From the NCBI GenBank assembly GCA_937625935.1, contig OW569368.1, positions 124,001 through 188,000 of the forward strand: a stretch of 64,000 nucleotides of DNA. The letters are read 5' to 3'. This DNA comes from Tetramitus jugosus. Taxonomy: Eukaryota > Heterolobosea > Eutetramitea > Acrasida > Vahlkampfiidae. Position 1 is the stretch's first letter. The number at the start of each line of letters is the position of its first letter. The notes beneath the pieces are model-generated. The model was not told the DNA's origin and ran no database searches. It worked only from the letters and a program-made list of their open reading frames with translations. This document shows, one piece after another, positions 30,822 through 59,434 of the stretch. Made by a program: the position numbers and the translations under genes.

Positions 30822-30832
30822 CCAAATCCAAA
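30822..30832. repeat. target-site duplication, left copy
   Basis: CCAAATCCAAA here is repeated exactly at 31195-31205. The two copies bound the LINE fragment between them, at the poly(A) end here and at the 5' truncation point there. Confidence 0.75.
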
Positions 30833-31194
30833 TTTTTTTTTTTAAATACAACCATTGGTTGCTCATTTTACTTCTTTGTTGATTCTCTGTATCGGTTTCG
30901 TGACGGCAGAATGCCGTCACTATTGACTTAAGTAGTTGCAAATGCTCGTAGAGCATTAGAAACCAGCAATCTCCTTTGAACTCGTGAAGAGGCGTCGCAT
31001 CACCTCCACGCACCTCCTCTTTGTATGATAGACAAATTGTTGGGCCTTCTCACTTGCCTTCTTCTTCTCCATCCCACTCTTCATCAGTCCTTTGATCACC
31101 TGTTTCAGCGCCCTTGTTTCAATACCCAGCATACCAAGCATGTATTCCTTGCTTGTTTTCCTCCGCTTATTGACTAGGAACGCACCGCCGTCGT
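30833..31194 (-). mobile_element. 5'-truncated LINE, 362 bp, upstream of tRNA-Thr
   Basis: On the minus strand this is the last quarter-kilobase of ORF2 coding, then a short 3' UTR, a terminal hairpin and a poly(A) run (T-run at 30833-30843). It has 11-bp direct repeats on both sides. The 3' UTR holds two perfect hairpins, at 30900-30920 and 30941-30957, like those in the copies at 49-59 kb. The element points away from the tRNA-Thr gene, which begins 53 bp to the right of the element end. Confidence 0.88.
30956..31194 (-). pseudogene. LINE ORF2 C-terminal fragment
   Basis: About 80 residues align with the extreme C-termini of the ORF2 proteins at 50.6 and 55.9 kb: RKTSKEYMLGMLGIETRALK here against SSKEFLLGMMGVEKVAVDQ and TSREFLMGMMGVETEAVS there, and ending RRLFTSSKEIAGF against HQLYTSYKEATKQ. 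The frame runs on past the 5' junction through the duplication and toward the tRNA gene, but that part is flanking sequence. No catalytic motif is left, so it is a dead fragment. Confidence 0.85.
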
Positions 31195-31205
31195 CCAAAT
31201 CCAAA
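31195..31205. repeat. target-site duplication, right copy
   Basis: This is an exact match to 30822-30832. Its right end is 42 nt before the first base of the tRNA-Thr gene. Confidence 0.75.
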
Positions 31206-31247
31206 AATAGAAATTTCCTCCACTGATGGAGAAATTCGATAGAAAAG

Positions 31248-31320
31248 GGCTCCTTAGCACAGGTGGCAGTGCGCTGTCCTAGTAAGACAGAGGTCACGAG
31301 TTCGAGTCTCGTAGGAGCCT
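31248..31320 (+). tRNA. tRNA-Thr (anticodon AGT)
   Basis: The 73 nt fold into a full cloverleaf: acceptor GGCTCCT/AGGAGCC, D stem GCAC/GTGC with a GG-containing loop, anticodon stem CTGTC/GACAG around CTAGTAA, T stem ACGAG/CTCGT around TTCGAGT, and discriminator T at 31320. No intron is present. The anticodon AGT (AGU, probably modified to inosine) reads Thr codons. It lies 26 bp before the ATG of the RCC1 gene. Confidence 0.95.
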
Positions 31321-31346
31321 ACTCACTTTTTGTTGTTTCAGAAAGC

Positions 31347-32740
31347 ATGCTTTTGGATCACTATGCAGGCATCCTCCAGAGGAAATTGGATTATGTCCAG
31401 GTTTACAGGTTGGACCTTGGATCACCAAACAGACGCATTGTGCAGATGGTAGGCGGCACCCGTCATCTCCTTATTCTGACAAATGACAATCAGTTGTTCA
31501 CCTGGGGTGAGAACAGTGACTCAATCGTGCCCAAAAACGTGAGCAACTCAACGACCCCCGATGGATGGTACAAGCTGAAAACTCCAGGTACAAATTCTTG
31601 GAACGCAATTGATATGATCGACTGTGGTGGCTACTACTGTCTAGCGCTGGTGAATCATGGCAGAGAGTTGTGGGGAGGTGGGAATAACTCGTTGGGCGAG
31701 CTTGGTTTGAAGAGTAGTGGTTACAGTGGTTGGGAATTGTTGCTCGCTGTGGGCAATCTCGTGAACCAATGTAAGGAACACAACATTGACTTTCCCTTGC
31801 GAAGGCCAATTGACTTCTTGGCCAACAACCCGAATGAAGGATTAGAAAACCAGAGGCCGCACAGGATCACTCATATCAGTGCTGGTTATTACTTTTGGCT
31901 TGTCGTGCTCGACAATCGCTATGTGTTTACATGTGGAGAAGACGAAGGAAGCCAATTGTGTCGCGATAATCCGAACAATGTCCCTAATAGATATCAACTC
32001 ATTAACGAGCAAGGAATGCTCAATGGAAAGAATATCAAAGAAATACGTGCTGGATTTAGATATTGGATGGCACTAACAACTGATAATCAATTGTATGGTT
32101 GTGGTACAAATTCTGACAATCGTAAGTAGTGATATGTTACTCATAATCTAGCAGTTTAATACTCATCGTTTTCTGTCATGTCATTGTAGAGTTGGGTTTT
32201 TCTGGTGAGTGCCCCCGATTGACTCTTATTGACATGACACAAGCAATACCGCGTGATTCTCCTGTGCCCACAATTCAATCTCTCCTCATCAGCCAAAATA
32301 ACTATTATGGCTCTGCGTTCCTGAGCACCGATGCAAAAGTTTACAGTTCAAATCTCTCTGAGATGAGTCATGCAGGTGACTCGTTCTTCAATCCCACAAA
32401 GGAATCATTTATTACCTCTGGCGATACGATTCAATATGCTAATAGCCATACCTTATCATGCTTTGTTCTTAATGGAATGGAAGCCTATACATACCAAAGA
32501 AATGAAGGTACCCTCTCTCCGATGGACTTATCCCAATTCAAACTTGAACGAGGCCACAGGGAAATTCTGGCGATAAGCTGTGGATATTATGGACATATGA
32601 GTTTTATTGTCGGACAGCCCGTTTCATGCCTTAATCGTCACTTTTGTCTCATGCCAAGAGCCAGAAAGTCCTTCACAGATGTTGAGATCATCACTCCGCA
32701 TCACCATTTGCAAGCTCAAAGCCTTTTTAGTCAGAAGTGA
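31347..32740 (+). CDS. RCC1-repeat protein, C-terminal BTB domain broken
   Basis: Two exons, 31347-32121 and 32190-32740, are joined over a 68-nt intron (GTAAGT ... TGTAG) to read TNSDN-QLGFSGE, which restores a canonical RCC1 blade; total 441 residues. RCC1 blades include LFTWGENSD, LWGGGNNSLGELGL, VFTCGEDEGSQL and LYGCGTNSDN. The C-terminus reads SFTDVEIITPHHHLQA, the start of a BTB domain, then runs into a stop at 32738. The expected continuation (KAFLVRSESF) is present in another frame, so a 1-bp loss near 32715 truncates the protein before the BTB core. A pyrimidine tract ending CAG directly before the ATG (31340) looks like a splice acceptor, so an upstream exon is possible. The role of the shortened protein is unknown. 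Confidence 0.75.
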
Positions 32741-32882
32741 GAGTTTCAGCGAGGATGATTTTTTGTGCCTGGGGTGTTGTATTGTAAATATCCTTCGCAA
32801 CTTCCTAATCCGGGAGGAGTTTTATACTCAACTGTCTTCGCTAGCTCCGCTCCGGACCACCATCCATCCTCTGTCTAGATAG
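32709..32882 (+). pseudogene. out-of-frame BTB remnant of the RCC1 gene
   Basis: The frame contains KAFLVRSESFSEDDF, matching the conserved HKAFLxRSxxF stretch of BTB/POZ domains. It overlaps the last codons of the preceding RCC1 gene in a different frame. The rest of the domain is not recognisable before the stop, so more than one disabling change is likely. Confidence 0.55.
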
Positions 32883-33165
32883 ACTATCGCTCGAGGTTTG
32901 TTTTGCATCTTAGACCTCGAATTCGAGCAAAGTGGCTTCGCAAATTATTGTCTGCTTACTTTCTTCTTTACAAACCAACAACAAATTCCATATTATCATT
33001 GAGAAACAATAGACGTATTTCATTAGGCTCATTCACACTGAGAGAAGAATCGCATCAAAACTCGCACACACCGCACCACCCACAAAAGGCACTTTTTTTG
33101 TTCCAAACCAAAACGTAAAAAAATCTCAACCCTAGGCTATCCACACACTTCCTCACACACGAGTC

Positions 33166-36100
33166 ATGGAACCCACCAATTCATCGCTTCTCAATGTTGT
33201 TGCATCGACATCTTCGTCATCTTCACCAACATCCACAGGTAACAACAACCACAACACCCTAACAACGACAGCCACACAACATCAAGCAGTTGCCGCTCCC
33301 CACATGATCCTGCCGGGTAACAACAATTTTTCAACGTCACCATCGTTGATCATCAACACAACAACTGCCGTGGCTACTCCTGACTATATCCATCAACAAC
33401 AACAACACCAACAACATTTATTTACACACCACTCACCACATCAACAACACTCTCCCTCACTGTTCAACCTACAACAACCGACAACAACAACAACAATAAC
33501 CAGTAGTTATCACCATCATCCACAACAACAACAACAACAACAGTACCAACAACAGTTTTCTCATCATCTTCAGCCGTTTATCAGAGCTACGACCAACAAC
33601 AATGCCCCTCATTCAACAACCACAACAACAACAACGATACCTACAGCAGTCACTGCGATCGCGTCATCCGTAGCAACAACAACGACATCAACAACGATAC
33701 CCGCGGGTCCATCTACAACAATAACATCAGACATGTCACCTCAAATGACAACAGCACATCACCTCCAACAACAGCATACTACAACAGATCAATTTAATTT
33801 TCTCGATGTGTCGCCATACAATGTCGTAGCTTCAATACAACAACAACAGCATTATATCCTAAATAATCATAATCATAATAATAGTAATAATAATAATAAT
33901 AATAGCTTTGGCAATGAAACATCAACGACACCCATGTTGAATACAATAACAACATCTTCTCATCATCATCAACAACAACCTCCATCGTATCATACTGCCA
34001 TTCGACCACCACCACCACAATATCATCATGCATCATCACATAACAACAACAATAACATGTTTATTCAAACGACGACGACACCACCACAATATGCATCCCT
34101 CTCAACAACAACAACAACAATATCAGAACCACAACATCATACACCAACGAATACAATATCAGTGTCAAACAATGGCAATGTCACTCCAACAACAACGATA
34201 AGTAACAATCATACGAATAATAATAATAATAGTAGTAGTAGTAGTAGTATTTCACCATTATCATCTCCATTGTCACCATTGATGATTAAACAAGAGAGTC
34301 ACTTGATTCATTCACGTCACAATAGTAACAACAACAATAGTAACAGAAGATTGAAGCGATCGTTTGATGACTTGAACAGTGCATCATCCGTGTCCCATTC
34401 ACCACTACTGACCACTGCAACAACAACAGCAGCAGCAGCAGCCACAACACCATCATCACCCTTACCACTTGTTGTTAGTCCCATTCATTCTCTATCATCA
34501 TCATCATCAAGTGGACAACAGCAACAACAATCTCCTACCACTACCACCACCACTACACTATATACACTCTATCAATCACAAGCTCATCCACCACTACCAC
34601 CACCTACTGTGGAACAACAACAACAACAACAACAAACGACAAGCAACACGAATACGGGAACCACTACTGCTCTGTCCTATAGTGATTACTATGCAGCTAG
34701 TAGTAACAACTCAAATGTACTTCATCATCAACCACTGCATCATCATCACAATAGTACGCAACAACAACAGCAACAACATCATCCATATCAACAACAACAA
34801 GCATCGAGTTATGAACCCATGTCACCACACTCGATTCATCATCATTCCTCTCCATCATCCTCTGCTTCATCTCCACCCTTTTCTCATCATCATCATCATC
34901 ATCTTTCTCTTCATCAGCACAATACAAGTACCAACAACAATAATAATAATAGTAGTGGTAGTAGTGGTCAACAATCATTTGCATCACCTACGACCACTAG
35001 TCCCCCTGTATTGAACTTTATGTATTCACCACCTCCACACCACTCTCATTCCTCTTCCTTTCATCAACAACAACAACATCGTCACGTTGACTACCATGTA
35101 CAACAGCAGCAGCAACAACAGCAACAACAACAATGGCAAGGTAACTTGCGTCTACAACAACAACAACAACATCCTCACGTGTCCTCCTCCTCTCAATATC
35201 ACATTGGTCTCGGAACGAACAGTAACATGAGTGGCAATCTTGATCAAGGTAGTAATGTTGGTAGTGGTGGTGTGATTCATCCGAGTGACACAAATGAGAA
35301 CAGCAGTAGTTCTTATTTGGAGTCGCTTGGACCACAACCCTCTCCCCCTACATTGCTCCACCAACATCAACAACAGCATCATCAGCAGCAACAGTACTCT
35401 ACTAGTAGCTTATTGTCGTCTCCTGTGACTGCAACCGGTGGTCTAACTCTCTCTGAGCTATTTATTTCTCCAACCAACAACAACAATAATAATAATAATC
35501 AGCATATTGGATATTCTATTATGGATGGCAATAGCTCCAACACATCAAACTTTATGAATCATAATATGATGATGGGAGTTCAGGACTCGACTGCAAATAA
35601 TAGCATGACACCAACCAATACTACGATAACAACAACAACAACAACAAGCGGTAGTAGTAATAATAGTAGCGTGATGGATGACTCTGATGACAATCCAATC
35701 AAGAGACAAGCAAAGAAACAAAAACAATCACGATTGACTCCCATTAACACGACCAGTGTCTCAGCAGTATCCAGTTCATCATCATCATCCTCCTCCTCCT
35801 CGTCATCACAATCATCCTCCAGTTCATCATCGACATCCTCTATACAACGTCAACAGCATCATCACATGCATAGCTCTGTTGGAACAAGTTCTCCCATTGG
35901 TGGCAATTGTGCATCACCTTCATCTGCATCCAAGGATCTCGTATTCAAAGATTTTAGTTTTACACCAGAAGACAACAAGATTCGTTTCGTGAACAGTGAT
36001 CATCAAAAGGATGGTATCAATGATGGAACGTGGAGTGAATTGGAACATAATTCCTTCCTCAGAGGACTGACACAGTGCGGCAGAGGTAGATGGAAAGATA

Positions 36101-36363
36101 TTGCTGACAAGTATGTCAAGACGAGAACGAGAACTCAGGTGGCCAGTCATGCACAAAAGTATTTCAATAGACAAAGAAAGGCAATGCAAGTGAAGAGTGG
36201 AGCAGCCACCACAGGTGCCGAAATCAACAGAAATGGAGACGCTGGATTTGGTGATCCTTTCACTTCCGTATACCATAACGATTTATTCGCCGTTCCGGCC
36301 CCTGAAACAGAAAATGCTCCGGTTTCCCTTGACGAGTTGGGAAATTCCCGGAATCAGACATAG
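33166..36363 (+). CDS. SHAQKYF-type Myb transcription factor
   Basis: This 1065-residue intronless gene has a single Myb/SANT repeat at about 952-1006: DGTWSELEHNSFLRGLTQCG, RGRWKDIADKYVKTRT and the diagnostic VASHAQKYFNRQRK ending. SHAQKYF-class Mybs are one-repeat factors common in plants and amoebae that bind TATCC-like elements. The 900 residues before it are extreme low complexity: runs of Gln, Asn, Ser, Thr and His encoded largely by CAA, AAC and TCA repeats. A basic patch (IKRQAKKQKQSRL, near 845) may be a nuclear signal. The large repeat content makes slippage and length variation likely. The Myb part is intact, so the gene is probably functional. Confidence 0.9.
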   Translation: MEPTNSSLLNVVASTSSSSSPTSTGNNNHNTLTTTATQHQAVAAPHMILPGNNNFSTSPSLIINTTTAVATPDYIHQQQQHQQHLFTHHSPHQQHSPSLFNLQQPTTTTTITSSYHHHPQQQQQQQYQQQFSHHLQPFIRATTNNNAPHSTTTTTTTIPTAVTAIASSVATTTTSTTIPAGPSTTITSDMSPQMTTAHHLQQQHTTTDQFNFLDVSPYNVVASIQQQQHYILNNHNHNNSNNNNNNSFGNETSTTPMLNTITTSSHHHQQQPPSYHTAIRPPPPQYHHASSHNNNNNMFIQTTTTPPQYASLSTTTTTISEPQHHTPTNTISVSNNGNVTPTTTISNNHTNNNNNSSSSSSISPLSSPLSPLMIKQESHLIHSRHNSNNNNSNRRLKRSFDDLNSASSVSHSPLLTTATTTAAAAATTPSSPLPLVVSPIHSLSSSSSSGQQQQQSPTTTTTTTLYTLYQSQAHPPLPPPTVEQQQQQQQTTSNTNTGTTTALSYSDYYAASSNNSNVLHHQPLHHHHNSTQQQQQQHHPYQQQQASSYEPMSPHSIHHHSSPSSSASSPPFSHHHHHHLSLHQHNTSTNNNNNNSSGSSGQQSFASPTTTSPPVLNFMYSPPPHHSHSSSFHQQQQHRHVDYHVQQQQQQQQQQQWQGNLRLQQQQQHPHVSSSSQYHIGLGTNSNMSGNLDQGSNVGSGGVIHPSDTNENSSSSYLESLGPQPSPPTLLHQHQQQHHQQQQYSTSSLLSSPVTATGGLTLSELFISPTNNNNNNNNQHIGYSIMDGNSSNTSNFMNHNMMMGVQDSTANNSMTPTNTTITTTTTTSGSSNNSSVMDDSDDNPIKRQAKKQKQSRLTPINTTSVSAVSSSSSSSSSSSSSQSSSSSSSTSSIQRQQHHHMHSSVGTSSPIGGNCASPSSASKDLVFKDFSFTPEDNKIRFVNSDHQKDGINDGTWSELEHNSFLRGLTQCGRGRWKDIADKYVKTRTRTQVASHAQKYFNRQRKAMQVKSGAATTGAEINRNGDAGFGDPFTSVYHNDLFAVPAPETENAPVSLDELGNSRNQT

Positions 36364-36779: not shown

Positions 36780-38707
36780 ATGCCGAAAGAAACATCCACC
36801 ACCAAAAAACGTAGGAATACGAAAAACAACAGCTCAAGTGATTCTCTGGATGAGGCACAACCAACAAAGACTCAGAGTAAAAGCAACGGCAGTAAGAAAA
36901 AGAAATCAAGTTCAACCGTGGTGCTTGAAAGAAAAGGTATGATGGTTAAATCTGCTCACAAATTTTGAGCTGCTCCTTGATTTTTTGTGGTGTGTGTTCG
37001 TTCTGCTTGCTCACAAGGCCAGCCGTTTTTTTGCTTTTCCTGTTTTTGGAAACACGTGGTATCCTGATGTACGTAGGCCCAAGTTGTCATCACTGTCGCT
37101 CTAGTCATATACGATGCGATGGTCGAAGGCCATGTGATAACTGTGTGAAGAGAGGCAAGGAGTGCTTCGATTATGACAAGACTCTGCTCTATCAACAACA
37201 TGTTCTTGACTTGTTGAACATTAGCCATCACACGAACAGTATCAACAGTACTGTTGGAGATGATGTAGTGGTGATGCCGAACCAAAGTGCAAGTAATTTA
37301 AATAATTTAAACATTGGCCATTCGCTCATGTCGATGCCAAAGGAGCAGTTATCCTCGTTGCTCATGACCATCAATCAACGACTCTTGTCGAATGCACCAA
37401 AGAGCAGCGGTAATATTGTGCCAAGTGTTATGGAAGATGTGAGTCATGATGGTGATGACGATGAAGCACAAGAGTATCTCTCGAACAAGAGGACATTGCC
37501 CGAAGCCGATGCTGATTCCGAGGATGACAAGCAAAGAATTCAACGAAGAATTTTTGAGGAGGTTGATACGAATGTAATGTTTGGTAGTGGTAGTGGTGAT
37601 CAAGCTTCGTCGGTAGGTTATCATCAAAATTCGGATTTGAATGGCAGTAACAACAGTCAAATGAATGCAAATTCAAATCAATACTTTACTTCATTGCTTC
37701 AGTCACATTTGAGTAGTTTGCTTGATATGTATGATGAAGATGCTTGTTCATCTGCGTCAGTGTCTGATGATGCTTTGACGATTCAAGGTCTGAAGAATGA
37801 GTCACCGTTGGATGGTCCAATCAATGACAATAAGAATGGTGGTAGCAGTAGTGGTACTTCAGGTGTGAATGGAGAAAAATCATCATATACAGTTGCCGAA
37901 GCAGCATACTTGAGGAGGGAGTTGAGCGAGTCTCGAGCCCTTGTGATGAATACACGGTCTGAGTTAATACGGCTTCAAAACGAAAATGCACTATTGAAAC
38001 AGAGACTGAACCAGTTGGAGGGCAGTGGTGTATCTGACAATTCGATGGATCGAGGCCTTCACATGTGGGATTTACCCAACGAACTGTATAAGCCAGTTTT
38101 TGTTGTCAATATGAGTAACTTTAGGATTATGGGCTGTAACAATTATTTTAGAACCCTCTCACGATATTCTCTGAGCGATTTCAAGGACACACCATTCTCT
38201 GTATTTCAGTTATTACCCAGTCGATCGATACCAATATGGCGGCTCGTAATCCAATGGCTAGGCTCGTCTGCCAAAGTAAAATACTTGGAGAACATTGGTT
38301 TTATTGTCACAAGAGATCAACAAGAGATTTGCTTGCGGTTGAAACGAAGGTTCGAAGAAGGCTACTGCTGGGTAGAATGTGAACCGACTCCAATGTACAC
38401 TGATGAATTTAAAGTCGATGATATTTACATACCTAGCACAATGCAGATCCCGTGTGACATTTCGCTGATGAAACTGATGCATCAACCTCCTCCTAGCCAC
38501 AATTATCAAAAGCTGTTGGACATTTTGTTCCAGAGAAAAGTGAGCCAACCAACCATAATTGACTACACGACGCAACAAATTCAAGCTCCAGATGTACAAC
38601 AACAGCAGCAAGGTGGTGTGCTCACTCAACAGTCTCTCTTCAAACCAATACAGCTGGATACGAACGAGGCAGAAGAATTATTAAGCCGGTACTCAAATGT
38701 CAAGTAA
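36780..38707 (+). CDS. Zn2Cys6 transcription factor with coiled coil and PAS-like domain
   Basis: Two exons, 36780-36936 and 37077-38707, are joined over a 140-nt intron (GTATGA ... CGTAG) and read ERKG-PSCHHC; total 595 residues. The first exon supplies a basic, Lys/Ser-rich arm. The Zn2Cys6 cluster is exact, C-x2-C-x6-C-x5-C-x2-C-x6-C, in CHHCRSSHIRC and CDNCVKRGKEC (about 55-81). An acidic, Ser-rich middle is followed by a leucine-zipper-like coiled coil (about 326-370) and a PAS-like domain (about 383-492; YKPVFVVNMSNFRIMGCNNY). Zn2Cys6 plus PAS is the layout of fungal Ert1/AcuK-type regulators of carbon metabolism. The C-terminus is Gln-rich. A nuclear DNA-binding homodimer is inferred; target genes are unknown. 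Confidence 0.85.
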
Positions 38708-42742: not shown

Positions 42743-42816
42743 AAGAGAGAACTTCCTCTGCTACTTCCGGAGAAACACAATTTTGTGAAAGGAAGGAGAC
42801 ACAAACATCACAAAAA

Positions 42817-49107: not shown

Positions 49108-49335
49108 AGTGTGGCAATAAATGCTTTCTCAATTTTCTCCTGATCACTATTTTTTAAGACTACATTTCGTCCACTTTCTTGTTGTTTCCTTGTGTGTTTT
49201 ACGACAATGTCCGGTATTGTAATACAATTGTAAAATATCTTCACTGAAATAGAAGATGAACAATAGTGTAATCTTCCTCTCGTGGTCCACATTGCATACC
49301 AATTTTGGTGAACCTGTCACCCAATTCCATTTTTC

Positions 49336-49349
49336 TGCGCTTTTTGAGT
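49336..49349. repeat. target-site duplication, distal copy of the LINE array
   Basis: TGCGCTTTTTGAGT here matches TGCGTTTTTTGAGT at 59316-59329 at 13 of 14 positions. The two copies flank the entire LINE array, at the outermost poly(A) here and at the outermost 5' junction there. Confidence 0.65.
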
Positions 49350-49350
49350 A

Positions 49351-50420
49351 TTTTTTTTTTTTTTGTTCCATACAACCAAGTGTGCGCAAGCACACGATTG
49401 CTCATTTATTGACTTGTTTTGTGAGTGACGACCCGTAAGGCGTCATTCACTCTTCTTCTCTTGTTGTCCCCTACGGTGCACCTACAGGTTGGAAGAATCA
49501 CTCAGGTGAGTGTTTTGGTTGATGCCCTTCATCAAAGAGCGTAACCTTGTAGTAGGACCGTCGATGGACACAGAGCCATCTGTTGTTTTTTTCTTGTCTT
49601 GGGCCTTGTTGCTCCTCAGATCACCCAGTGTGATCCTGGCACTCCTCTTCTTGTTGTCATTGAGTTGTGGACTCTGAATCTCCTTTTCGGAGTCATCATC
49701 CACATCCACAATGACTGGTTCGTCCTCTGTCAAACCATACCTTTTGCGTGCAGCAGCAAGTGCCAATGCAGCAATTTCTTTCTTCACTCTGGCAAACACT
49801 GGAGAAGTGGCATTCACTTGCTCCTGAATTAGCCGATTTTCAGTGCTGAGCCGTGCAACAGGCAATGATGGCAGTGGTGTTGTACTCCTTTGTTCTTCTG
49901 CCTCCATTAGATCTGGAGCAGTTCTTTGTGCAACTTCTAGTTCCCGTATCGGAACCGGTTTGTTGCTCTCTTGACCCTTTGTCTTTGCCAATTCCTTGGT
50001 GAGTTCTGTGACCTGTCGACGCAGTGCGTCAACCACCGTCAGCAGCTCCTCGTACATCTTCGTCAACCTCTTGTTGACAGCCTTGAGGGGATCATGTGGC
50101 CTCTCGACGTATCGAGTGACTGTGGCCTTTACCTTGTTCTCTCCATTGAGCACTGCTCGTACATAAAAGTCATAGATGCGGTCACCCTTGACCGTCATCC
50201 ATGCCATAAAGCGTAGCTGGTCTTTCCTCTTGATGACTTGGACTCGGTTGAGCCAGTCACCAAACTCCTCTCCTATCTATCTTGCCATGACTGAGAGACA
50301 CCAATACCGTTGCCAGTAATGACGACCTCCTTCATTTGCGGCGACTTTCCGTGCAGTGTCCCACAATGCATACCTGCTCTAGCCGTACGCCACCAATTTT
50401 GTTGAAGCACCATGAAAAAC
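49351..50420 (-). mobile_element. copy 4: ORF1-only half-LINE
   Basis: This 1.07 kb element has an ORF1 that begins about 8 nt from its 5' junction and a complete 3' end with hairpins and poly(A) (T-run at 49351-49364), but no endonuclease or reverse transcriptase. The 3' end includes a stem-loop at about 49422-49452 and a nested stem GTGTGC/GCACAC (49380-49395) inside the terminal hairpin. It is a candidate non-autonomous derivative that would use the proteins of a full-length copy. Confidence 0.75.
49482..50413 (-). pseudogene. half-LINE ORF1, one frameshift and one stop
   Basis: The frame opens at the ATG at 50413 with residues homologous to the ORF1 of copy 2 (MKEVVITG here, KKEVVIKG there). 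A 1-bp loss and a TAG near 50275 break it; the frame then continues IGEEFGDWLNRVQVIKRKDQ, FMAWMTVKGDRIYDFYVR, matching IGSRYKEWVTRVHVRRWEKG, FIAWVNVKDDKLYEFAEM of copy 2. About 70 central residues of copy 2 are missing. A Leu-rich coiled coil follows (NKRLTKMYEELLTVVDALRR), typical of LINE ORF1 trimerisation. The C-terminus is charged and unlike copy 2, so this is a related but separate subfamily. As an RNA-binding chaperone ORF1 packages the element RNA; this copy cannot make the full protein unless the two lesions are recent. Confidence 0.75.
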
Positions 50421-50424
50421 TGCG

Positions 50425-50513
50425 TTTTTTTTAAAATACAACCGTTTCGGTTGCTCACTTTATTGTCTTTTGTTTTCTTCAACCATCGCTCTTTGAGCGA
50501 TGGCCCTTGAAAA
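50425..50513 (-). mobile_element. copy 3: 89-bp LINE 3' end
   Basis: Only the 3' UTR remains: a perfect 9-bp hairpin CCATCGCTC/GAGCGATGG (50483-50503), the terminal hairpin ACAACC/GGTTGC and a poly(A) run (T-run at 50425-50432). It has the same 5' junction bases as the other copies. It is the shortest example of severe 5' truncation in the array and shows that the junction motif is not part of the internal element sequence. Confidence 0.8.
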
Positions 50514-50648
50514 ATTGCGTTTTTTTTTTTTTTTAATACAACCAACTGGTTGCTCTGTTTTATTTTCTGGGTATTTACAATGGATAACGCTCGAAGAGCG
50601 TTATCTCCTCCATTACTTCTTAATTCTAACAATGGTGCCCGTAGGGCG

Positions 50649-53600
50649 TCATTGTTTTGTTGCTTCCTTATAGGAGGTGTACAATTGGTGAAGGGTTTCG
50701 ACGCACCGCCTTTTCACCTTGTTCACAAATGTTCTGGCTCTCTTTTCCGCCATTTCTTTTTTGATTCCGTTCTTCCTCATTCCTCTCATAATTTGATCCA
50801 CTGCTACCTTCTCTACACCCATCATACCTAGGAGGAACTCTTTGCTTGATTTTCGGTTTGGTTGCACTGTCAGCTTACCGCCTTTCCAACAGACGGAGTC
50901 GAACCATAGGTCAATCTGGTGTTTTGGGTGGATTCCCAGACCACTCAGCTCATCACCCACCGACATAGCCAGTCTTCTTCGAGTCAATATGGCCCTCGGA
51001 CAGCGAATGAGACAATGTAGTATAGTCTCTGACTCCTTGTGGCATCTTTCGCACACTGTTGGAGCTTCATTCTTTCCATACAATACCCTCATGACTTCTC
51101 GGGTGTGCAAGGTACCACTCCGCACTTGTGCATAAAACCACTCCAGCTTTCTGTCAATCTTGTGTGGGTACTTTAGAAAACTAAAGTCCACCCCACCGCA
51201 CATAGCTTCAATTTGTAACCACCATAGACCACCAATATCTTTAATCCTGACAAGTCTCTCATGATCCATCCGCAACTGTATTTGCTCTCTGCTCTCGACA
51301 GGGATTTGACCTATCATCAAAGTTTGCACTACAGAGACTCTTGAGTTAGGCTCTAACGTCGGAGCACACTCGCATTCATTCATTTGTGACACCATTATTT
51401 TTAACAGCTCATGAGACCTTGGTCCAATCTTGCATCCAGGGAACTTGTTTTTGATCTCTTTTAAACTCATGACCCTCACACCAACCATCAGCTGACTTCT
51501 GTTAGTGATTCCACTCTTGAACAGCTTCTTGAGAATAGTAGTTGGAACATATCGGGCAATGTTACAATCGTCACAATTGCGGTGGATGCTCTCATTATTG
51601 AGTGTAATACCATGAATGTGCATCCGTTGTGCGCACCACTTAAGGTAAGTGTTTTTGACGTACTCGAGGCGGTTGCTTGACTGGAAGACATTCTCACGTT
51701 GGAATGTTTGTGTGTGCTTGATTTCCTCAAGCGTGTCAAGCAGCAACTGCTTCGCCTCCGTGTCCCTCTTACCCGACATCATTGAGCCAATAAACCAGGC
51801 GGTCTGTACTGTTATTGTTTCCTCTATGTCATTGAGACCCACTGATCCACGATCGCTGCTTACCGACAGTAACTCGGAAGGAAACTGTGACATCGCTCTT
51901 GAGCCATGTTTGACCAGCATCCTTCCCAGTCTGTTCACTCTGAGAAGTCCCCCAGCCGTCCAGTCTGTGAATTCGGACGAGTACTTGAAGATAGGGTGTA
52001 TACAAGTGTTAACGACCCTTGCCACCTGTCGCGGAGTCAGTTTCATCATCTTCAGTCGGTTCGCTACTCTTTGTGATTTGTTCCAAGCTTGAGCCACTTG
52101 TTGTTTCGTGTCACTTCAGGTTGGTGAAGAGACCCAGTGCTCTGAACCCATGACCACTGTTTCGGGCCCTGACAACTGTACCATCCACCTCTATATCGTG
52201 GGCTCCATCCTCATCAAATTGCCGAACGTAGAGCTCAAGTTTATCGGGGTGCATCGACATGCGAAGCAACGATAGCACCTCTGACATCGCCTTGGCTGCT
52301 CGTTCAATGTCTGCTCGGGATTCAGAGAACAGATTACAATCGTCAACATACGACGCGTTCCACAATTGTTGGGACATAGCCTTGTACCCTTCCATCCGTT
52401 TTTCAACATACATTAACACAGTTTGGTGTACGAGAATGTATGTTGTGGGTGATAGAGAATCACCCTGTCTTGTTCCTTTTCCGATAGGGAAGCTTCTTGA
52501 TAAGGACTTCGTCAACACACTTGCGAAATTGTCCTCAACCATACCACTCACCAGCCTCACGATGTTGTCCGGGAACTCAAAAAATTCATAGACAGACCGG
52601 ATTGCGTTGTGAGGTACCGAGTCGAAGGCCTTTGATATATCCGTAAGCAACAGAAACAGTTGTTTTTTGTTCCGATTGGCGTGGTCAATGACACCTCTGA
52701 TTACAGAAAGCTTTTCTCTAATGTCCCTGAACCTTCTGCCTCCGCCTTGCACGTTTGAGAAGATTCCACCCGTCTCTGCCGCCTTGGAGATTCTGCAGTT
52801 GATTAACTTGGTGTACAGCTTTGATACGGTACTCAACAAACAGATTGGTCTGTAGTTGGCAGGATTAGAAGTGTCTCCCTTCTTGAAAGCTGGGATAATT
52901 ATCCCCTCCTTCCACATTTTGGGAAAAATCCCTTGTTTGGTGATGTTGTTGAAGAAATCAGCAAGGATTTCTGACAGATCATACCTGTAGTCACGCTCTT
53001 TAGTGATGGGGACTTTCAGCATTTCGTTATGTATTTTGTCGACACCGGGACATTTACGGTTTCTCAGCCAACCAATGGCTTTGCTAACTTCCTCTGTAGT
53101 GATTGGAGTGAACGCTTCGTGTATTGTTGCTCTGTGCCCATCACTTTTTAAAGCTCTTAGGTAATCCATGTTGGCAACTTCAGGGGAAAATGCACCTTCA
53201 AAGTACTCCGCGGCCAAATTACCCACTGTGATCTCATCTGTGTACTCTATTCCATTCTTCTTCACTCTAGAAAGTCTTACTCGAGAGCTCTTCTTCGCGG
53301 TTGATGCTGAGAAGAAGGTGGACGGGTCAATGAACTCGGATGTCCTGGCCTTCCATTCCCACTTTCTAAACTTTTGATTGGCTTTGCGTACCCTCTCTCT
53401 GTGCAAGGACTCGCTAGTAAGTTTCAGCGCTTCCCATGCTCTGTCATTGCGAGATCCGACAATTTCCCAACCACACACTGCTTCCAATGCACTGCTCCAT
53501 CTTCGATCTGACAGGTAACGAATCAACGCTTCTCTGTTTTTCAACAACCTCTTGACCTTTCGATTGTTGCTCCACATCTTCACTGTTCTCTCCACTTCAA

Positions 53601-54477
53601 ACACTTTAGCATGTTTGATGATAGCGGATGTTATAATTTGACACTGCTCATTTACATCTTCTATTGCAGTTACACTACTCTCCTCTAGCTCCCTGATGAG
53701 CTCCTTACCATAATGGACCCATCTAAGGTCTTTCTTGTCCTTGGGGAACTTAAACATCGTTCCACTATATCCAGTATTTGTGCCAGTTCTGGCTTTTATC
53801 GTGACTAAAGTAGGTACATGATCGCTATGTACACCATTGGATGTGAACATTTCTACCTTATCAATTGCATCTATTATTGCTTGGTTGCACCATACTGAAT
53901 CTATTCTCGACGACGACTTCCTGCGAAAGAATGTATGGAATCTTTCTACTCCCACTACCTCATTGGTGTCACACAGGTTGTTCTCCTTCAACACTTGCAG
54001 TAGTAATGGCGTGTTCTCGTCTACTCTGTTCGAGGATCGGTCAGTAGCAGCTGTAACGGCATTATGATCACCACCTAAAATGAACTTTCCTTGGACAGCG
54101 TATTTGCTAATCGTTGCTTCAATTGATTTGTAATGTTCACGGTTCTTTTTGTGAGGTCCATAGTGATTAGCTATCGTGATCGACTCATCTACCGTAGAAA
54201 CCTTGATTACTTGCAACCTGGATTCACTGTGCATCACCCCATATGATGGCACTGTGGTGGTTCTGACTATTGCTGCCAAGTGTTGATTGGGAAGATCACA
54301 AACCAGAACACACTTAATTCTCTCTAACTTCCTGCTGAGTACCTTACACCATGCTTCGTCAATGTTAGTTGCCTCCTGTATCAGCAACACATCTATTTGC
54401 TCTGACTCCAAAAAGTCCACGACATCATTGGCTTTGCCCTTGATGCCGTTGATGTTGTACCACATCACTTTCAACAT
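50649..54477 (-). pseudogene. LINE ORF2: APE endonuclease, reverse transcriptase, CCHC (one frameshift)
   Basis: From the ATG at 54477 the N-terminal 230 residues form an APE-type endonuclease: MWYNINGIKGK, LLIQEA, ILGGDHNA, SSRIDSVWC and SDHVP, all catalytic positions kept. The reverse transcriptase follows: FKKGDTSNPANYRPICLLS, LLLTDISKAFDSVPH, GTRQGDSLSP and the catalytic YVDD in ASYVDDCNLFSE. The C-terminus has CERC-x7-H-x4-C, the knuckle usual in LINEs. The reading frame stops at 52111 (after LGLFTNLK) and the remaining 480 residues continue in another frame from about 52107 to 50649, so a single 1-bp indel is the only lesion seen. Copy 1 crosses this point without a break. The protein would nick the target DNA and prime reverse transcription from the nick. 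The start overlaps the upstream ORF by 7 nt. Confidence 0.88.
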
Positions 54478-54920
54478 AATGGAGATGTGTGGTCCGACTG
54501 GGGTTGAGATACCTCATTATCGTGTATCACATGGCTTGTCACTGCAAGCGCTACTTCCTTACTGGCTTGAACAATATCAATCATATTGGCCAGCCGAACC
54601 GGGGTCTTCAACAAAGCTCTTTTTCTTGAGTTTTCTGAGAGGACCGAATTCGGACCTCTCTTTCCACTCTCCTTTATAGGGGTATCTTCGCGAGGCACAG
54701 TGAACTTGGAGATGAGTGCTTGGCTATCTGATAGGGCGCGCTCCCGTCTCTTCTCTCTTCTCGCTCTCACTAGCATTTTCCTTCTTTCCTCAAGCAGCTG
54801 GCCTTCAGTGTTCTCATTTTCACCCGTAGGTAGTGGATCATTACCGATCGTAGTGCTCTCCACTACCAGTTCAACACTTGGCTCTATCTCCGGAGTTGTG
54901 AGTACCATTGGCGTCAACAT
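54471..54920 (-). CDS. LINE middle ORF (ORF1b), 149 residues
   Basis: This frame overlaps the end of ORF1 by 50 nt in another frame and its TGA overlaps the ORF2 ATG in ATGTTGA. It could be a separate small protein, a C-terminal extension of ORF1 made by frameshifting, or the result of an indel in ORF1. Its sequence is charged, with an Arg/Lys-rich stretch (ERRKMLVRARREKRRERAL) that suits RNA binding. No counterpart is visible in copy 4, and copy 1 lacks this region. The close ATG/TGA overlap fits translation of ORF2 by termination-reinitiation. Confidence 0.55.
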   Translation of the reverse strand: MLTPMVLTTPEIEPSVELVVESTTIGNDPLPTGENENTEGQLLEERRKMLVRARREKRRERALSDSQALISKFTVPREDTPIKESGKRGPNSVLSENSRKRALLKTPVRLANMIDIVQASKEVALAVTSHVIHDNEVSQPQSDHTSPLC

Positions 54921-55773
54921 TCATCTCTTCTACCATCTCAGTTGGTTCAACGTCTGTTGTTTGTTCTCCAGCCTCCGTGACATCTATTTCAGAGATTGTT
55001 TCATCTCCTTGCATTGAAATGTCGTTGTCAATAGGGATAGACACACCGGGTATTTCACCTACTCTTTGGGGTTCTTCTCTCATTGATTTATGTGTTTTCC
55101 CGTTCCTCTTCTTGTTCAAAGCCTTCTTTAGGCTCGCTTCCAGTTGTGCCACTCTTCTCTTTAGCTCTTCCATCTGCTTGTTTAAGGATTCATTGATCCT
55201 TTGCATCTTCTTGGACATTAGTTTCATTGGATCTTGATTTCTTATGACATGGCTAATCTCAGCTCCAATGTGCTTGTCCCCAATAACAGCATGAGCATAT
55301 GACTGGGATGTCATTGTGACAAATGCTGTGCTGCCCTTGACTTCTACTTGACGTACTCTGTCCTCCCCAATGAGTTTAGCGATGTCGTCTCTTGACCTAC
55401 CGAGAACCTTGTGAACCACAAGTTTTTTCTCCGAGTCAAGACCTCTCTTGATGGATGCATGGGTGTTTGCGATTCTTCTTGACTCATTGAACATCTCAGC
55501 AAACTCATAGAGTTTATCGTCCTTCACGTTCACCCACGCAATAAACTGGCCTTTCTCCCATCTTCTGACATGTACACGAGTCACCCACTCTTTGTACCTT
55601 GAGCCAATCATTCTTGCAATTGTTGGTGCTGTGTTATGGCACTGTGTACCTTTGATCACGACTTCTTTTTTGTTGATGCTACTTCCAATGTTCTGGACTG
55701 TCCATACCGCGTACCCGTCACGCGAGTACTCCCTTGCCCCCGGAGAGGATGGAATGTTTGCGTTTGTTTCCAT
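54871..55773 (-). CDS. LINE ORF1 protein
   Basis: This 300-residue frame starts at the ATG at 55773, very near the element 5' end. The N-terminal part (KKEVVIKG, then IARMIGSRYKEWVTRVHVRR, FIAWVNVKDDKLYEFAEMF) is shared with the half-LINE. The middle has an RRM-like beta-alpha pattern (RQVEVKGSTAFVTMTSQSYA) and a coiled coil follows (MSKKMQRINESLNKQMEELK). The C-terminus is acidic. ORF1 proteins of LINEs bind the element RNA as trimers; in Dictyostelium TRE5-A the ORF1 protein also contacts TFIIIB, which guides insertion near tRNA genes. A similar role here is a hypothesis. The frame is intact. Confidence 0.75.
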   Translation of the reverse strand: METNANIPSSPGAREYSRDGYAVWTVQNIGSSINKKEVVIKGTQCHNTAPTIARMIGSRYKEWVTRVHVRRWEKGQFIAWVNVKDDKLYEFAEMFNESRRIANTHASIKRGLDSEKKLVVHKVLGRSRDDIAKLIGEDRVRQVEVKGSTAFVTMTSQSYAHAVIGDKHIGAEISHVIRNQDPMKLMSKKMQRINESLNKQMEELKRRVAQLEASLKKALNKKRNGKTHKSMREEPQRVGEIPGVSIPIDNDISMQGDETISEIDVTEAGEQTTDVEPTEMVEEMNVDANGTHNSGDRAKC

Positions 55774-55794
55774 GGTTTTTTTTTAAAAATTGCG

Positions 55795-58700
55795 TTTTTT
55801 TTTTTTTTTTTTTTTTTAATACAACCATATCGGTTGCTCACTTTATTGTCTGTTATATTCATTAGCCATCGCTCGCAGAGCGGTGGCTCTTGGTCACCAT
55901 TTTGATTCCCCAATGACGCTCGGAGAGCGTCATTGCTGTTGTTTCTCTTTCGTTGTAGTGAATAGGTGGAGGAGAGTCGTGAGACACTATTCACGTAAGT
56001 TTTAGCTATCTTATCTGCTGTTGCTGTCTTTACTCCATTTGCTATCAGACCTTCCGCGATGTCGCTGACGGCCTCTGTCTCAACACCCATCATTCCCATC
56101 AGGAACTCCCGGCTCGTTCTTCTCAACGGTCTCCTGACCACTTCTCCGCCTACTATCCTCACATTGTCGAACCATATATTGATACAGCTGGTATCAGCAA
56201 CCCCCATCTTGATAATTTCTGCTGCCACCGTCATCGCGAGGCATCTTCTGGCACGAACCGCTCTAGGGCACCGAATTAGACAGTGGAGCACACTTTCGGG
56301 CTCCTGACTGCACCACACACATTTGGTGGGATCGTTGTCTGAGTTGTAGAGGACTCTTACAACTTCTGCGGTATGGAGCGTCCCACTGAGGACTTGCATC
56401 TGAAACCACACAAGCTGCCTGTCTATACTGTGGGGATTTTTGAGGAAGCTGAAGTCCGCTTCACTTCTACTAACGGCCTTTTGTAACCACCACCTCTCAC
56501 ATTCTTCCACTCTTCTGTTCCTTTCCTGGTCAAATAGTGACTGCAGATGCTTCCTGTTTTCTACGTGAAACATCCCTTTGTAGAGTGCGGGTTCTTTTTC
56601 TACCCTATTGATTAGCTGGGAACACATGCATTCCTTCATTTGGCCAATCATTATATTCAGCACTTGGTGGGACGTGACTCCAACTTTGCACTTAGGGAAC
56701 AGGAGCTTGAATTCTTTGAGACACAGCGGCTGTCCATCAACAACTAATTGGTCACGGCTGTTTATGCCTGCTTGGAAAAGCTTCTTGAGCGTAGTAGATG
56801 GTACGTATCTAGCGAGGCAGCAATCGTCACATTGCCTTCTTTTGTTGGTACTTAGGATGATGTCGTGCGTGTGCATCCTCTCTGCACACCATTTGTGATA
56901 GGAATGTTTGACAAACTCCAGCCTGTTCCTTGACTGATACACATTCTCTTCTTGGAATGTTTGTTGTTGCTTGATATCCTCAAGCGTATCAATGAACAGC
57001 TTTCGAGCCTCTGTGTCTTTTTTCCCGTTGACCATGGACATCACGAACCATGCCGTCTGAACAGTAACTGATTCCTCTATATCCTTGAGTCCTACCAATC
57101 CCAGCTCACTACTGACGGACAGTAGTTCTGTTGGGAACCTTTTCATGGCTTTTGATCCGTACTTCACCAATGAGCGACCCAGCTCATTGACCTTATCAAA
57201 CCACATAGTCGTCCAGTCTGTGAATTCCGCCGCATATGTGAAGATTGGGTGGATGCATGTGTTTACAACACGACTCACTTGCCTGGCCGTGAGTCTCATC
57301 AGTTTCAGCCTAACCACCACCCGTTGTGCCTTGAGCCAGGCTTGCTCTTTCTGCATCTTCGTAGTGCCCCTGAGATTGGTGTATAGCCCCAATGCCCTGA
57401 ACACTTGTTTGTTGTTTCTCGCGGGAACTAATGCCCCATCAACAGTGATGTCGTTGGCTGTATTGCTATTGAGCTTCCTGACATACAACTCCAGCTTATC
57501 TGGATGCATAGTCATACGTAGCCATCGCAATACAGTAGACATTGCCTTCGCGGCCCTTTCGATGTCCTCACGTGACTCTGCGAACAGGTTACAGTCATCA
57601 ACATACGCTGCGTTCCATAGTCGTTGTGAAATTGTGTGCACTCCCTTCATTCTTTGGTCCACATACAAGAGAACAACCTGATGGACAAGTATGTAGGTAG
57701 TCGGGGACAGTGAATCTCCTTGTCGAGTGCCCTTGCCTATTCGGAATCTCCGTGATAGCGAGGAAGTTAAAACCCGCGCGTGATTATCTCGTACCATTCC
57801 GCTAACTAGTCTTACAATCCCCTCAGGGAATCCGAAGAACCTGTAAACAGCCTCAATGGCGTTATGAGGGACTGAGTCAAATGCCTTGGAGATATCCGTA
57901 AGCAGTAAGAAGAGCTGCTTATCATGCCGGTTGGCATGGTCCACAACTCCTCTGATTAGGGAGAGCTTCTCTCGTATATCGCGAAATCTCCTTCCCCCAC
58001 CTTGGGCCTTCGTGAATACATTTCCATCTTCAGCAGCTTTTGAGACACGTTGGTTCAGCAACTTGGTGTATAGTTTTGATAAAGAACTTAATAGACAGAT
58101 AGGCCGATAGTTCTCAGGCATTGTGACATCCCCCTTTTTGAAAGCTGGAATGATAATGCATTCCTTCCATGCCCTTGGGAAGTATCCCGTTCGCGTGATG
58201 AGGTTGAAAAGCCCACAGAGTGTCTCTGCCAATTCCCACCTGTAATCCCTTTTCCTGGTGCAAGGGAGCTTGATCATTTCATTGTGTATCCCATCTACCC
58301 CTGGGCATTTCCTATTCCTTAACCATCTCATTGCCTCTGCTACTTCCTCTGTCTTGAAAGGTGTGAAGGCCTTTCTTAATTCGTACTTGTTGCTGCGACA
58401 TTCCAAGAGCGACAGGAATCCCATACTCGCCTCTTCCTTCTTGAATGCTTCTTCGAAGTAGTCCGCGGCTGCGTCTCCAACCGTCTGTGCATCTGTGTAC
58501 TGCATTCCTTGTTTTGTCACTCTAGATAATCTCACCCGACCGCTCTTCTTGGCTGATGCAGCTGAGAAGAACTTGGACGGATCGCTAAACTCAGCAGTTC
58601 TTGCTGCCCATTCCCACTTCCTATACTTCTGAGCATTCTTCTTTGCTCGAGCTTGGTGCAATCTTCCATTGATATGCTTAAGTGTTTCCAATACCCTGCC

Positions 58701-59315
58701 AATCCTCGTGATATTCCTCTCTGTTCTGCCACATATCCGCTCTAGACTAGGGCTCCACTGGCGTTGTTGCATGTATTCCATCAGCGTTGCTCTATGTTTG
58801 AGCATCCTTCTGACTGCTCTGTTTTGTCTCCATATCTTAGACTCGTTTATCACTTGGAATGACTGGGCATGCTTGAGGATGGCATTAGTGATAGTCTCAC
58901 ATTGGACATCCACATCGTCCACATCCTGTATCTTGCACCGTTCCAATTCAGTAACAACGTTATGGGCATACTGCACCCATCTTACATCATCCTTTTTCTT
59001 TGGAAAGGCGTAGGACACTCGCTTGTTTGGTGTTGGGGGTTGCTTCTCCATCTTCAATGTTAGTTGTGTTGGAACGTGGTCGCTTCCTACACCGTTCCTG
59101 GTGTACATCACGATAGCTACGCACTCTTCAAGTGCAGCTCTGTTACACCACACGGTGTCAATGCGAGATGATGATCCTTTTCTATAGTACGTGTGAAACC
59201 TCTCAGCTCCCAAAAGCTCGTTAACGTCGAATAGGTTGTTGTCTTTCATTGTCTCCACCAGAGCATTAGTGTTGCAATCGATTCTGCTCGCCGTTCTGTC
59301 AGAGGCTATAAAAAT
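55795..59315 (-). mobile_element. copy 1: 5'-truncated LINE nearest the tRNA
   Basis: This 3.5 kb element starts inside the endonuclease domain and runs through ORF2 and the 3' UTR to a 23-nt poly(A) (T-run at 55795-55817). Its 3' UTR has an 11-bp perfect hairpin CAATGACGCTC/GAGCGTCATTG (55911-55935), a second hairpin AGCCATCGCTC/GAGCGGTGGCT (55864-55888) and the terminal hairpin (55821-55838). It is the least damaged ORF2 and has the longest poly(A), consistent with being the youngest copy. Confidence 0.85.
55930..59310 (-). pseudogene. LINE ORF2 of copy 1, N-terminally truncated
   Basis: The coding part begins IASDRTASRIDCNTNALVET, homologous to the mid-endonuclease of copy 2, and keeps SSRIDTVWC and SDHVP. 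All reverse-transcriptase motifs are intact (FKKGDVTMPENYRPICLLSS, LLLTDISKAFDSVPH, GTRQGDSLSP, AAYVDDCNLFAE), as is the C-terminal CVWC-x7-H-x4-C knuckle. Near 55985 a 1-bp shift moves the last residues out of frame: the normal end would read HLFTTTKEKQQQ and stop at 55930-55932. The frame instead runs through the 3' UTR, the poly(A) (read as Lys) and into the next copy down to 55656, so the apparent 1200-residue product is an artefact. No start codon and no endonuclease N-terminus means no autonomous function. Confidence 0.85.
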
Positions 59316-59329
59316 TGCGTTTTTTGAGT
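59316..59329. repeat. target-site duplication, tRNA-proximal copy
   Basis: TGCGTTTTTTGAGT, the partner of 49336-49349. Its right edge is 34 nt before the tRNA-Gln gene. Confidence 0.65.
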
Positions 59330-59363
59330 TTTTATGAAATATATCGATTTGTTGTAATATCTC

Positions 59364-59434
59364 TCTCCTATGGTCTAGTGGTATGATAGCGGACTTTGAA
59401 TCCGTTGACGGTGGTTCGATTCCACCTAGGAGAA
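59364..59434 (+). tRNA. tRNA-Gln (anticodon TTG)
   Basis: The 71 nt fold into a cloverleaf: acceptor TCTCCTA/TAGGAGA, D stem GTC/GAT with TAGTGGTAT loop, anticodon stem GCGGA/TCCGT around CTTTGAA, T stem GGTGG/CCACC around TTCGATT, and discriminator A at 59434. There is no intron. The A and B box promoter elements (TGGTCTAGTGG and GGTTCGATTCC) are good. The anticodon TTG reads CAA. A T-run for polymerase III termination begins within a few bases (ACTTTTGG). Confidence 0.95.

Follow-up and report, generated by a model that had tools for sequence, protein, structure and literature searches.

To our knowledge, LINE targeting upstream of tRNA genes is known from dictyostelids only. Yeast Ty3, which is linked to TFIIIB, and DGLT-A likewise insert upstream of Pol III genes, and both are LTR elements with an integrase. 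According to extracts of three reports, TRE5-A of Dictyostelium discoideum inserts 44-54 bp upstream of tRNA genes, with 80% of tagged insertions within 47+/-3 bp, is strictly antisense with its 5' end toward the tRNA, forms TRE-TRE tandems and also inserts at 5S genes (PMC5911963, PMC5391098, PMC5006619). The same extracts describe an element whose two ORFs carry APE, RT and a zinc finger, TRE5-A.2 as a non-autonomous form that integrates in the same way, and some TRE at 61% of the D. discoideum tRNA genes. A TRE5-like position, 39-64 bp upstream, is also given for NLTR-B of Polysphondylium pallidum (PMC5911963, in extract), while elements of the TRE3 group, which are tRNA-targeted non-LTR elements as well, lie downstream and in the same orientation.

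The window analysed here is a stretch of 64,000 nucleotides from a host that, unlike that of TRE5, is probably outside Amoebozoa. A search with the cap-binding protein returned three matches: a contig with 99% identity, one with 42%, and a weak one from Mortierella. At one of its tRNA genes a truncated LINE copy lies antisense and upstream, as follows:

31247-31322, plus strand: tRNA-Thr (AGT), the target gene (ARAGORN, Rfam)
31195-31205: target-site duplication CCAAATCCAAA, tRNA side, read from the sequence
30833-31194, minus strand: 5'-truncated LINE copy, a 362 bp 3' end with A-tail, 5' end toward tRNA-Thr
30847-30862: terminal hairpin of this copy
30822-30832: target-site duplication CCAAATCCAAA, distal copy, read from the sequence

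The sequence-only reading had recognized this arrangement, and its spacing of 42 nt is corrected to 41 nt between duplication and gene. It had also described one antisense LINE locus with its 5' end toward tRNA-Gln at a spacing of 34 nt. There the orientation stands, the spacing is 38 nt, and the locus is really a stack of four insertions (E1-E4) with the apparent 5' end of a fifth (E5):

59364-59435, plus strand: tRNA-Gln (TTG), the target gene (ARAGORN, Rfam)
59310-59325: target-site duplication AAAAATTGCGTTTTTT nearest tRNA-Gln, 38 nt before the gene (duplication score 16)
55801-59309, minus strand: E1, 5'-truncated LINE copy nearest tRNA-Gln, ORF2 frame open (P0001)
55820-55837: 3' hairpin of E1
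55785-55800: AAAAATTGCGTTTTTT target sequence again, between the E1 tail and the E2 5' end
50526-55784, minus strand: E2, near-complete two-ORF LINE
54871-55773, minus strand: ORF1 of E2 (P0002, 300 aa)
50649-54477, minus strand: ORF2 of E2 (APE-RT), split by a frame break into the open frames 52111-54477 and 50649-52049
50510-50525: AAAAATTGCGTTTTTT target sequence again, between the E2 tail and E3
50431-50509, minus strand: E3, 79-bp 3'-end stub with hairpin at 50437-50454
50415-50430: AAAAATTGCGTTTTTT target sequence between E3 and E4, here with one mismatch
49350-50414, minus strand: E4, copy of family B (ORF1-only) whose 3' end is B-type, has a hairpin at 49368-49403 and terminates in TATGG; its open frame begins within ORF1
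49200-49345, minus strand: E5, apparent 5' end of another B-like copy behind E4, delimited by eye, lower edge approximate

E1 lies nearest to tRNA-Gln and is therefore read as the youngest of the stack. Its ORF2 carries the RT motif YVDD and a CX2CX8HX4C motif, and truncated siblings at tRNA-Arg (L034) and tRNA-Ser (L063) are identical to it in 97.1% and 96.7% of residues.

The elements are APE-type non-LTR retrotransposons (LINEs). Pfam scans place an RVT_1 reverse transcriptase in E1 (E 3.5e-27) and E2 (E 1e-27) and an APE-like endonuclease at the N-terminus of ORF2, with PF03372 in L014 (E 1.9e-5, 25.0 bits, cut-off 24.5) and PF14529 over its cut-off in E2 (E 1.2e-6); the endonuclease match in L021 is below cut-off. 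In contrast to Ty3 and DGLT-A, the copies combine APE-RT with A-tails, 5' truncation and variable target-site duplications; a Ty3-like LTR element was rejected on account of the A-tails and the Pfam scans of ORF1 and ORF2, in which no integrase family was found. An R2/RLE-type LINE, which would have an RLE endonuclease and a target inside the rRNA gene, was likewise dismissed, as APE is present and the insertions lie outside the target genes. RNase H was not detected by Pfam in the ORF2 frames scanned, whereas NLTR-B has such a domain (PMC5006619, in extract). The single-sequence AlphaFold model of ORF1 (P0002) is of low confidence (pLDDT 57), and its best Foldseek matches, a mix of aspartate-kinase regulatory (ACT-type) and tandem-RRM proteins, only suggest that ORF1 may hold two ferredoxin-like repeats.

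The placement of LINEs upstream of tRNA genes is confirmed genome-wide. Among 136 LINE clusters in the 26.35-Mb genome, 106 have a Pol III gene on their 5' side (97 tRNA, 9 5S rRNA), and this gene is antisense to the LINE in 106/106 clusters, including 9/9 of the 5S rRNA subset. The targeting with fixed spacing and one orientation that had been proposed from the two window loci thus holds, and extends to 5S rRNA genes. ARAGORN found a tRNA in the 5' flank of 93/136 clusters (82.2 kb of flank in all), antisense in 93/93, where 1.3 would be expected if the genome holds about 428 tRNA genes (654 B-box pattern matches minus 226 matches of the reversed control pattern). Other LINE sequence is present in the flank of 25 of the remaining 30 clusters; the last five have little or none, with LINE matches over 0-24% of the flank, and yielded no Pol III gene. 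Extension of four flanks led to a tRNA in two and to more LINE in two. A tRNA-Trp-like relic was seen by eye at one of the five clusters (#46).

The association is also seen from the side of the genes. An antisense LINE edge lies at most 1,200 nt upstream in 16/17 tRNAs near clusters and at 1,795 nt in the 17th; for 16 of the other 36 tRNAs, LINE sequence begins no further than 450 nt upstream (one of them weak, L190; a 25-bp match at L169 was left out), giving 32/53 for both groups. Sense-upstream or downstream cluster matches within 1,200 nt were found for 0/53 tRNAs, which sets these elements apart from TRE3 and rules out placement in that group. The targets comprise 19 tRNA isotypes (ARAGORN) and 5S genes, with differing flanks. 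Among the 5S genes listed, 2/47 have an antisense LINE edge no more than 1,200 nt away, versus 16/53 tRNAs, and 5S genes are therefore the weaker target.

Relative to the gene, the target-site duplications (13-21 bp) have fixed positions. A score of at least 13 was reached by 16/18 true pairs versus 4/306 mismatched pairs, counted after three of 21 rows (two from L029 and one for a second 3' end of L024) had been dropped because they were taken to come from other stack members; the high-scoring mismatched pairs may in part share the element-derived AAAACGCAG. The duplications fall into two registers about 9 bp apart according to ORF2 clade, 13/13 at -37 to -41 and 5/5 at -26 to -32, the latter represented by five copies and two family-B duplications, of which one is weak (score 10, with two mismatches). 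The clade labels of L025, L026, L023 and L008 stand for similarity to P0001, not for a position in the tree.

The "one family" of the sequence-only reading was too simple, as four ORF2 clades and two ORF1-only families (B and C) take part. The 5' end of family B lies at a median of 49 nt from the gene (10-62, n=32) and that of family C at 60 nt (50-67, n=24), so that a single register shared by both is ruled out. Family B has the TATGG terminus at 4/4 of the 3' ends found, although the search pattern itself contained TATGG (L029, the only further B copy checked, stops before its end), as have 5/5 clade-4 loci and 0/12 clade 1-3 loci. Its ORF1, in contrast, shares 23-32% identity with clade 4 and 34-47% with clades 1-3. 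Family B joins a clade-4 3' end and register with the ORF1 of another lineage, a hint that the register depends on ORF2p or the RNA end and not on ORF1p. The family-B register is common to clade 3 as well as clade 4. Family C, whose ORF1 groups near that of family B, uses the long register, and its 3' end, read once (L075), is GTTGTTTT, which is not TATGG and not exactly the usual clade 1-3 end TATT either. HAL1 (half-LINE) is an ORF1-only passenger of a LINE. Family B resembles it in this respect, but inserts at a fixed site and draws its ORF1 and 3' end from different LINE lineages.

Coincidence at the two window loci could appeal to nothing beyond the small initial sample, and the genome count (93 tRNAs against 1.3) refutes it, its probability being practically nil. 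Survivorship, by which LINEs would insert all over a compact genome but persist only in the harmless space beside tRNA genes, would suit a window with 30 ORFs of at least 200 aa in 64 kb, and TRE-type targeting is usually explained as damage avoidance (PMC5006619, in extract). It is nevertheless extremely improbable, as it cannot explain why 106/106 clusters have one orientation, why 5' ends fall within a few nt, why one 16-bp site was used repeatedly, or why there are two registers that follow clade. A sequence-specific endonuclease, reading a DNA motif that happens to sit upstream of tRNA and 5S genes, would account for the precise insertion, and several duplications do contain the AAAACGCAG-like sequence that older elements bring as their 5' end. 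However, information around the nick is at most 0.48 bit per position (18 duplications), and gene positions -6 to -45 hold at most 0.3 bit, except for 0.39 at -7 and 0.32 at -8. With targets as varied as 19 tRNA isotypes and 5S genes, we regard such an enzyme as very unlikely.

We posit instead, with good confidence, that APE-type LINEs and their ORF1-only passengers use target-primed reverse transcription to integrate at the upstream boundary of the transcription complex on tRNA and 5S genes. From the position, orientation, duplications, stacking and registers that are directly observed, we infer the docking and the order of nicks. The element ribonucleoprotein would dock on a protein shared by tRNA and 5S genes, TFIIIB being the most likely one. 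The endonuclease would nick the coding strand of the gene first, at the edge of the duplication that faces the gene (about -37 to -41, in the second group -26 to -32), and the other strand would then be cut 13-21 bp further out. Each new copy would insert between the gene and the older copies, so that stack order would be age order. The clade-4 enzyme probably mobilizes family B in trans, in which case ORF2p, or the RNA 3' end read by ORF2p, would set the register, and not ORF1p. We extend this only tentatively, at slightly less than even chances, to the view that ORF2p and the RNA 3' terminus set the register and perhaps target choice, family B being a natural chimera whose clade-4-type 3' end recruits the clade-4 enzyme and lands about one helical turn closer, and family C, with its other 3' end, keeping the long register.

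TFIIIB would fit as the tether because tRNA and 5S genes both have it, the position is as in TRE5, and the targets hold no strong motif. TFIIIB is, however, also expected at U6 genes, and the finding of no LINE match among two U6 and three SRP RNA genes thus counts against a TFIIIB-based explanation. TFIIIC, which serves tRNA and 5S genes and not U6, Pol III itself or a nucleosome-free region might take its place; the two U6 genes without LINE would agree with TFIIIC. Ty1 integrase contacts Pol III (PMC10050235, in extract). Against this, the U6 and SRP sample amounts to five genes, a nucleosome-free region is too loose for one orientation and a window of few nt, and TFIIIB subunits are bound in vitro by the ORF1 protein of TRE5-A (PMC5911963, PMC5006619, in extract), so that a tether other than TFIIIB appears unlikely.

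The system resembles TRE5-A in position, orientation, tandems, 5S targeting and ORF1-only partners, a likeness in behaviour, set beside TRE5 by descriptions. The placement of the TRE5 group, about 50 bp upstream and antisense, is found here, the short register beginning at -26 to -32. Two registers by ORF2 clade go beyond TRE5 as described in the extracts, and the two ORF1-only families, unlike TRE5, have their own ORF1 lineages. A protein search with the ORF2 alignment returned nine proteins, eight of them distant; no dictyostelid protein is named among the matches listed, most of which are nameless. The suggested new LINE lineage holds only insofar as P0003 (682 aa) is the sole close relative among these matches. 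In a tree with 30 retrieved references, none of them a TRE, the stem of the LINE clade is long (2.05) and support for the backbone is weak (37/85).

This tRNA-targeting system is rich and apparently recent, since truncated siblings are about 97% alike in residues. The same landing site in a probable heterolobosean would mean that it was adopted twice or is very old. If our reading is true and the system is also independent of TRE5, targeting of the TRE5 kind would have arisen a second time, in another eukaryotic supergroup. Work on TRE5, in the extracts cited, goes as far as ORF1p contacts with TFIIIB (PMC5911963, PMC5006619); age-ordered stacks and two registers in one genome provide natural experiments that bear on which protein of the element recognizes the Pol III complex.

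The sequence-only reading had posited, from two loci, a LINE family that inserts at a fixed distance upstream of tRNA genes and on the opposite strand, and the genome-wide count bears this out. The assembly (26.35 Mb, 56 contigs, with the window at 124001-188000 on contig C25) was searched for ORF2 (at least 42 matches), a 211-bp 3' end (at least 41) and ORF1 (at least 132), counts that are lower bounds because the search scores the best candidates only. Matches merged by strand gave 136 clusters (at least 136 in the genome), and the 5' flank was examined for every one (short stretches for 124, the other 12 coming from further loci or from the window itself). ARAGORN called a tRNA in 93 of these flanks, against about 1.3 expected by chance in the 82.2 kb of flank; all 93 lie opposite the LINE strand, and 19 isotypes are represented. 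An ORF1 match forms the cluster edge in 70 of the 93, with the tRNA start at most 121 nt away in 68 of these; the remaining 23 are bounded by an ORF2 or 3'-end match instead, and such an edge does not necessarily coincide with the 5' end of the copy. An Rfam scan of 20 loci from the remainder, and a few others, added a 5S rRNA gene in nine flanks, each on the opposite strand, and a degenerate tRNA in two; the Rfam tRNA at locus L102 was already in the count, and that at L019, on the 3' side, was left out. Extending the flank of four clusters yielded a tRNA in two, again on the opposite strand, so that 106 of 136 clusters have a Pol III gene at their 5' side, all 106 on the opposite strand. Among the remaining 30, LINE matches span about one third or more of the flank in 25, which may hold either a further copy in front or the continuation of the same copy, and cover 0-24% in five (#5, #28, #33, #46 and #92). 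Upstream of cluster #46 (L071) a tRNA-Trp-like relic was recognized by eye, and the sequence upstream of it resembles, likewise by eye, that of intact tRNA-Trp genes.

The window holds two tRNA genes, both on the plus strand according to ARAGORN and Rfam, each preceded by LINE sequence.

tRNA genes and stacked LINE copies in the window (window coordinates)
31247-31322, plus strand: tRNA-Thr (ARAGORN, Rfam)
59364-59435, plus strand: tRNA-Gln (ARAGORN, Rfam)
55801-59309, minus strand: E1, the copy nearest tRNA-Gln, truncated ORF2
50526-55784, minus strand: E2, ORF1 and ORF2 with a frame break
between E2 and E4: E3, a 79-bp stub in the Gln stack
about 49350-50414, minus strand: E4, an ORF1-only copy
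apparent 5' end, identified by eye: E5, a putative fifth copy of the Gln stack

Upstream of tRNA-Thr lies a 5'-truncated, 362-bp LINE 3' end on the minus strand, with CCAAATCCAAA duplicated on both its sides, 41 nt ahead of the gene. The 16-bp target AAAAATTGCGTTTTTT of the Gln stack stands between E1 and the tRNA, again where E1 meets E2 and where E2 meets E3, and, with a single mismatch, between E3 and E4. One spot, 38 nt ahead of tRNA-Gln, was therefore used repeatedly, and we read the order of the copies as their order of arrival. A fungal-type Zn2Cys6 domain (PF00172, E = 2.5e-9) also occurs in a protein that the window encodes at 37067-38707, in a host that is probably not a fungus.

Viewed from the genes, the best 53 nuclear Rfam tRNAs were considered (63 listed minus 10 mitochondrial). 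Seventeen lie near clusters; for 16 of these the edge of an antisense LINE is no more than 1,200 nt upstream, and for the other the nearest such edge is 1,795 nt away. LINE sequence also occurs in the 450 nt upstream of 16 of the 36 others (the weak L190 included, a 25-bp match at L169 excluded); the ORF match is antisense in 15, and L174 is a nucleotide match alone. Altogether 32 of 53 (60%) are LINE-associated, close to the 61% given for TREs of any kind in Dictyostelium discoideum in excerpts of PMC5006619. As a control, none of the 53 had a sense-upstream or downstream cluster match within 1,200 nt. Occupied 5S genes number two among the 47 listed (at least 47 in the genome), and two of those listed have downstream cluster matches; these genes are dispersed on many contigs (e.g., L060, L080 and L106) and form no single array. 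The two U6 and three SRP RNA genes found showed no LINE-query match within about 1.5 kb on either side, a sample of five being too small for a decision. At L118 (155-210) and L152 (165-221), tRNA genes fit the tRNA model from position 9 onward only, each with a copy of the ORF1-only family B at about the usual spacing; decay of the tRNA gene after insertion is possible.

The mitochondrial tRNAs come from contigs C54 and C56, which have five listed each at identical coordinates, so that one contig may be a second record of the other. The mitochondrial contig (49,460 bp; about 22% GC over the 4 kb measured) carries a NADH dehydrogenase piece, atp6 and cox11, the last being mtDNA-encoded in heteroloboseans. 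Published heterolobosean mtDNAs are AT-rich and of 49.5-51.5 kb, according to an excerpt of PMC4202320. The host is thus probably a heterolobosean amoeba.

The 18 copies with both ends have target-site duplications of 13-21 bp; 16 of 18 true pairs score at least 13, against 4 of 306 mismatched pairings, the lowest being L009 (10) and L003 (11). In ORF2 clades 1 and 2, all 13 copies have their gene-proximal duplication edge between -37 and -41 and the distal one between -51 and -61; in clades 3 and 4, sisters in the RT tree (support 87/81), the corresponding edges are -26 to -32 in all five copies and -43 to -48. The register follows the ORF2 clade, which is suggestive rather than proven because the clades are few, although the copies sit at different genes. 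Sequence information near the cut does not exceed 0.48 bit, which argues against an endonuclease that reads DNA.

ORF2 contains APE and RT domains, and most frames extending that far carry a CX2CX8HX4C motif. ORF1 matched no Pfam family above cut-off; in its alignment the N-terminal region is conserved and a heptad-like helix comes after it. A single-sequence model (pLDDT 57) hints at a long helix and at a pair of beta-alpha-beta-beta-alpha-like repeats. Families B and C are stacked in several clusters at intervals of 1.05-1.46 kb, leaving no space for the 3.9-kb ORF2. A whole B copy in L006 (1,312 bp) has a single ORF1-homologous ORF with a 405-codon open frame, its own 3' hairpin with an A-tail, and no ORF2. 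For C, the copy of L013 overlaps L189 (91% over 163 nt), which overlaps L075 (96% over 261 nt), where a short 3' UTR, the terminus GCAACG...GTTGTTTT and an A-tail come after the end of ORF1, without ORF2. In dozens of B and C copies the frame is still open over about 390-480 codons, a sign that they were active recently or that ORF1 is under selection.

The 5' end lies at a median of 49 nt from the gene in B (n = 32, four of them 5S) and 60 nt in C (n = 24, one 5S). B duplications start at -31 in L006 (15-nt exact match to -45) and at -30 in L002 (to -45, score 10, two mismatches). All four B 3' ends found terminate in TATGG, a motif that the search pattern itself contained (the L029 copy is interrupted ahead of its 3' end), as do all five clade-4 loci; clade 1-3 loci end in TATT (11 of 12) or TATA (one). 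The identity of B ORF1 is 34-47% with clades 1-3 and 23-32% with clade 4. In the ORF1 tree, clade 4 stands apart from B, C (on a long branch) and clades 1-3 (100/100). Judged by the terminus, the duplications and the ORF1 comparison, B shares its 3' end and register with clade 4, while its ORF1 belongs to a different lineage. The simplest reading of these sequences is that the clade-4 enzyme would mobilize B in trans, with ORF2p or the RNA end setting the register. Clade 3 has the clade-4 register and a different 3' end. Family C has the long register and a terminus other than TATGG (one end, L075); this terminus could have contradicted a role of ORF2p or the RNA end in the register and did not, which makes such a role slightly more likely. 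We posit, at somewhat less than even confidence, that ORF2p and the RNA 3' terminus, not ORF1p, set the register and perhaps target choice, and that B is a chimera.

Among the matches listed from the open-access literature, tRNA-targeted non-LTR elements were recognized only in dictyostelids. As described in excerpts of PMC5911963, PMC5391098 and PMC5006619, TRE5-A of D. discoideum shares the insertion position upstream of tRNA genes, antisense orientation, tandem copies, 5S-gene insertions and the existence of a non-autonomous form. In behaviour, if not necessarily by descent, the LINEs of this genome closely resemble TRE5.
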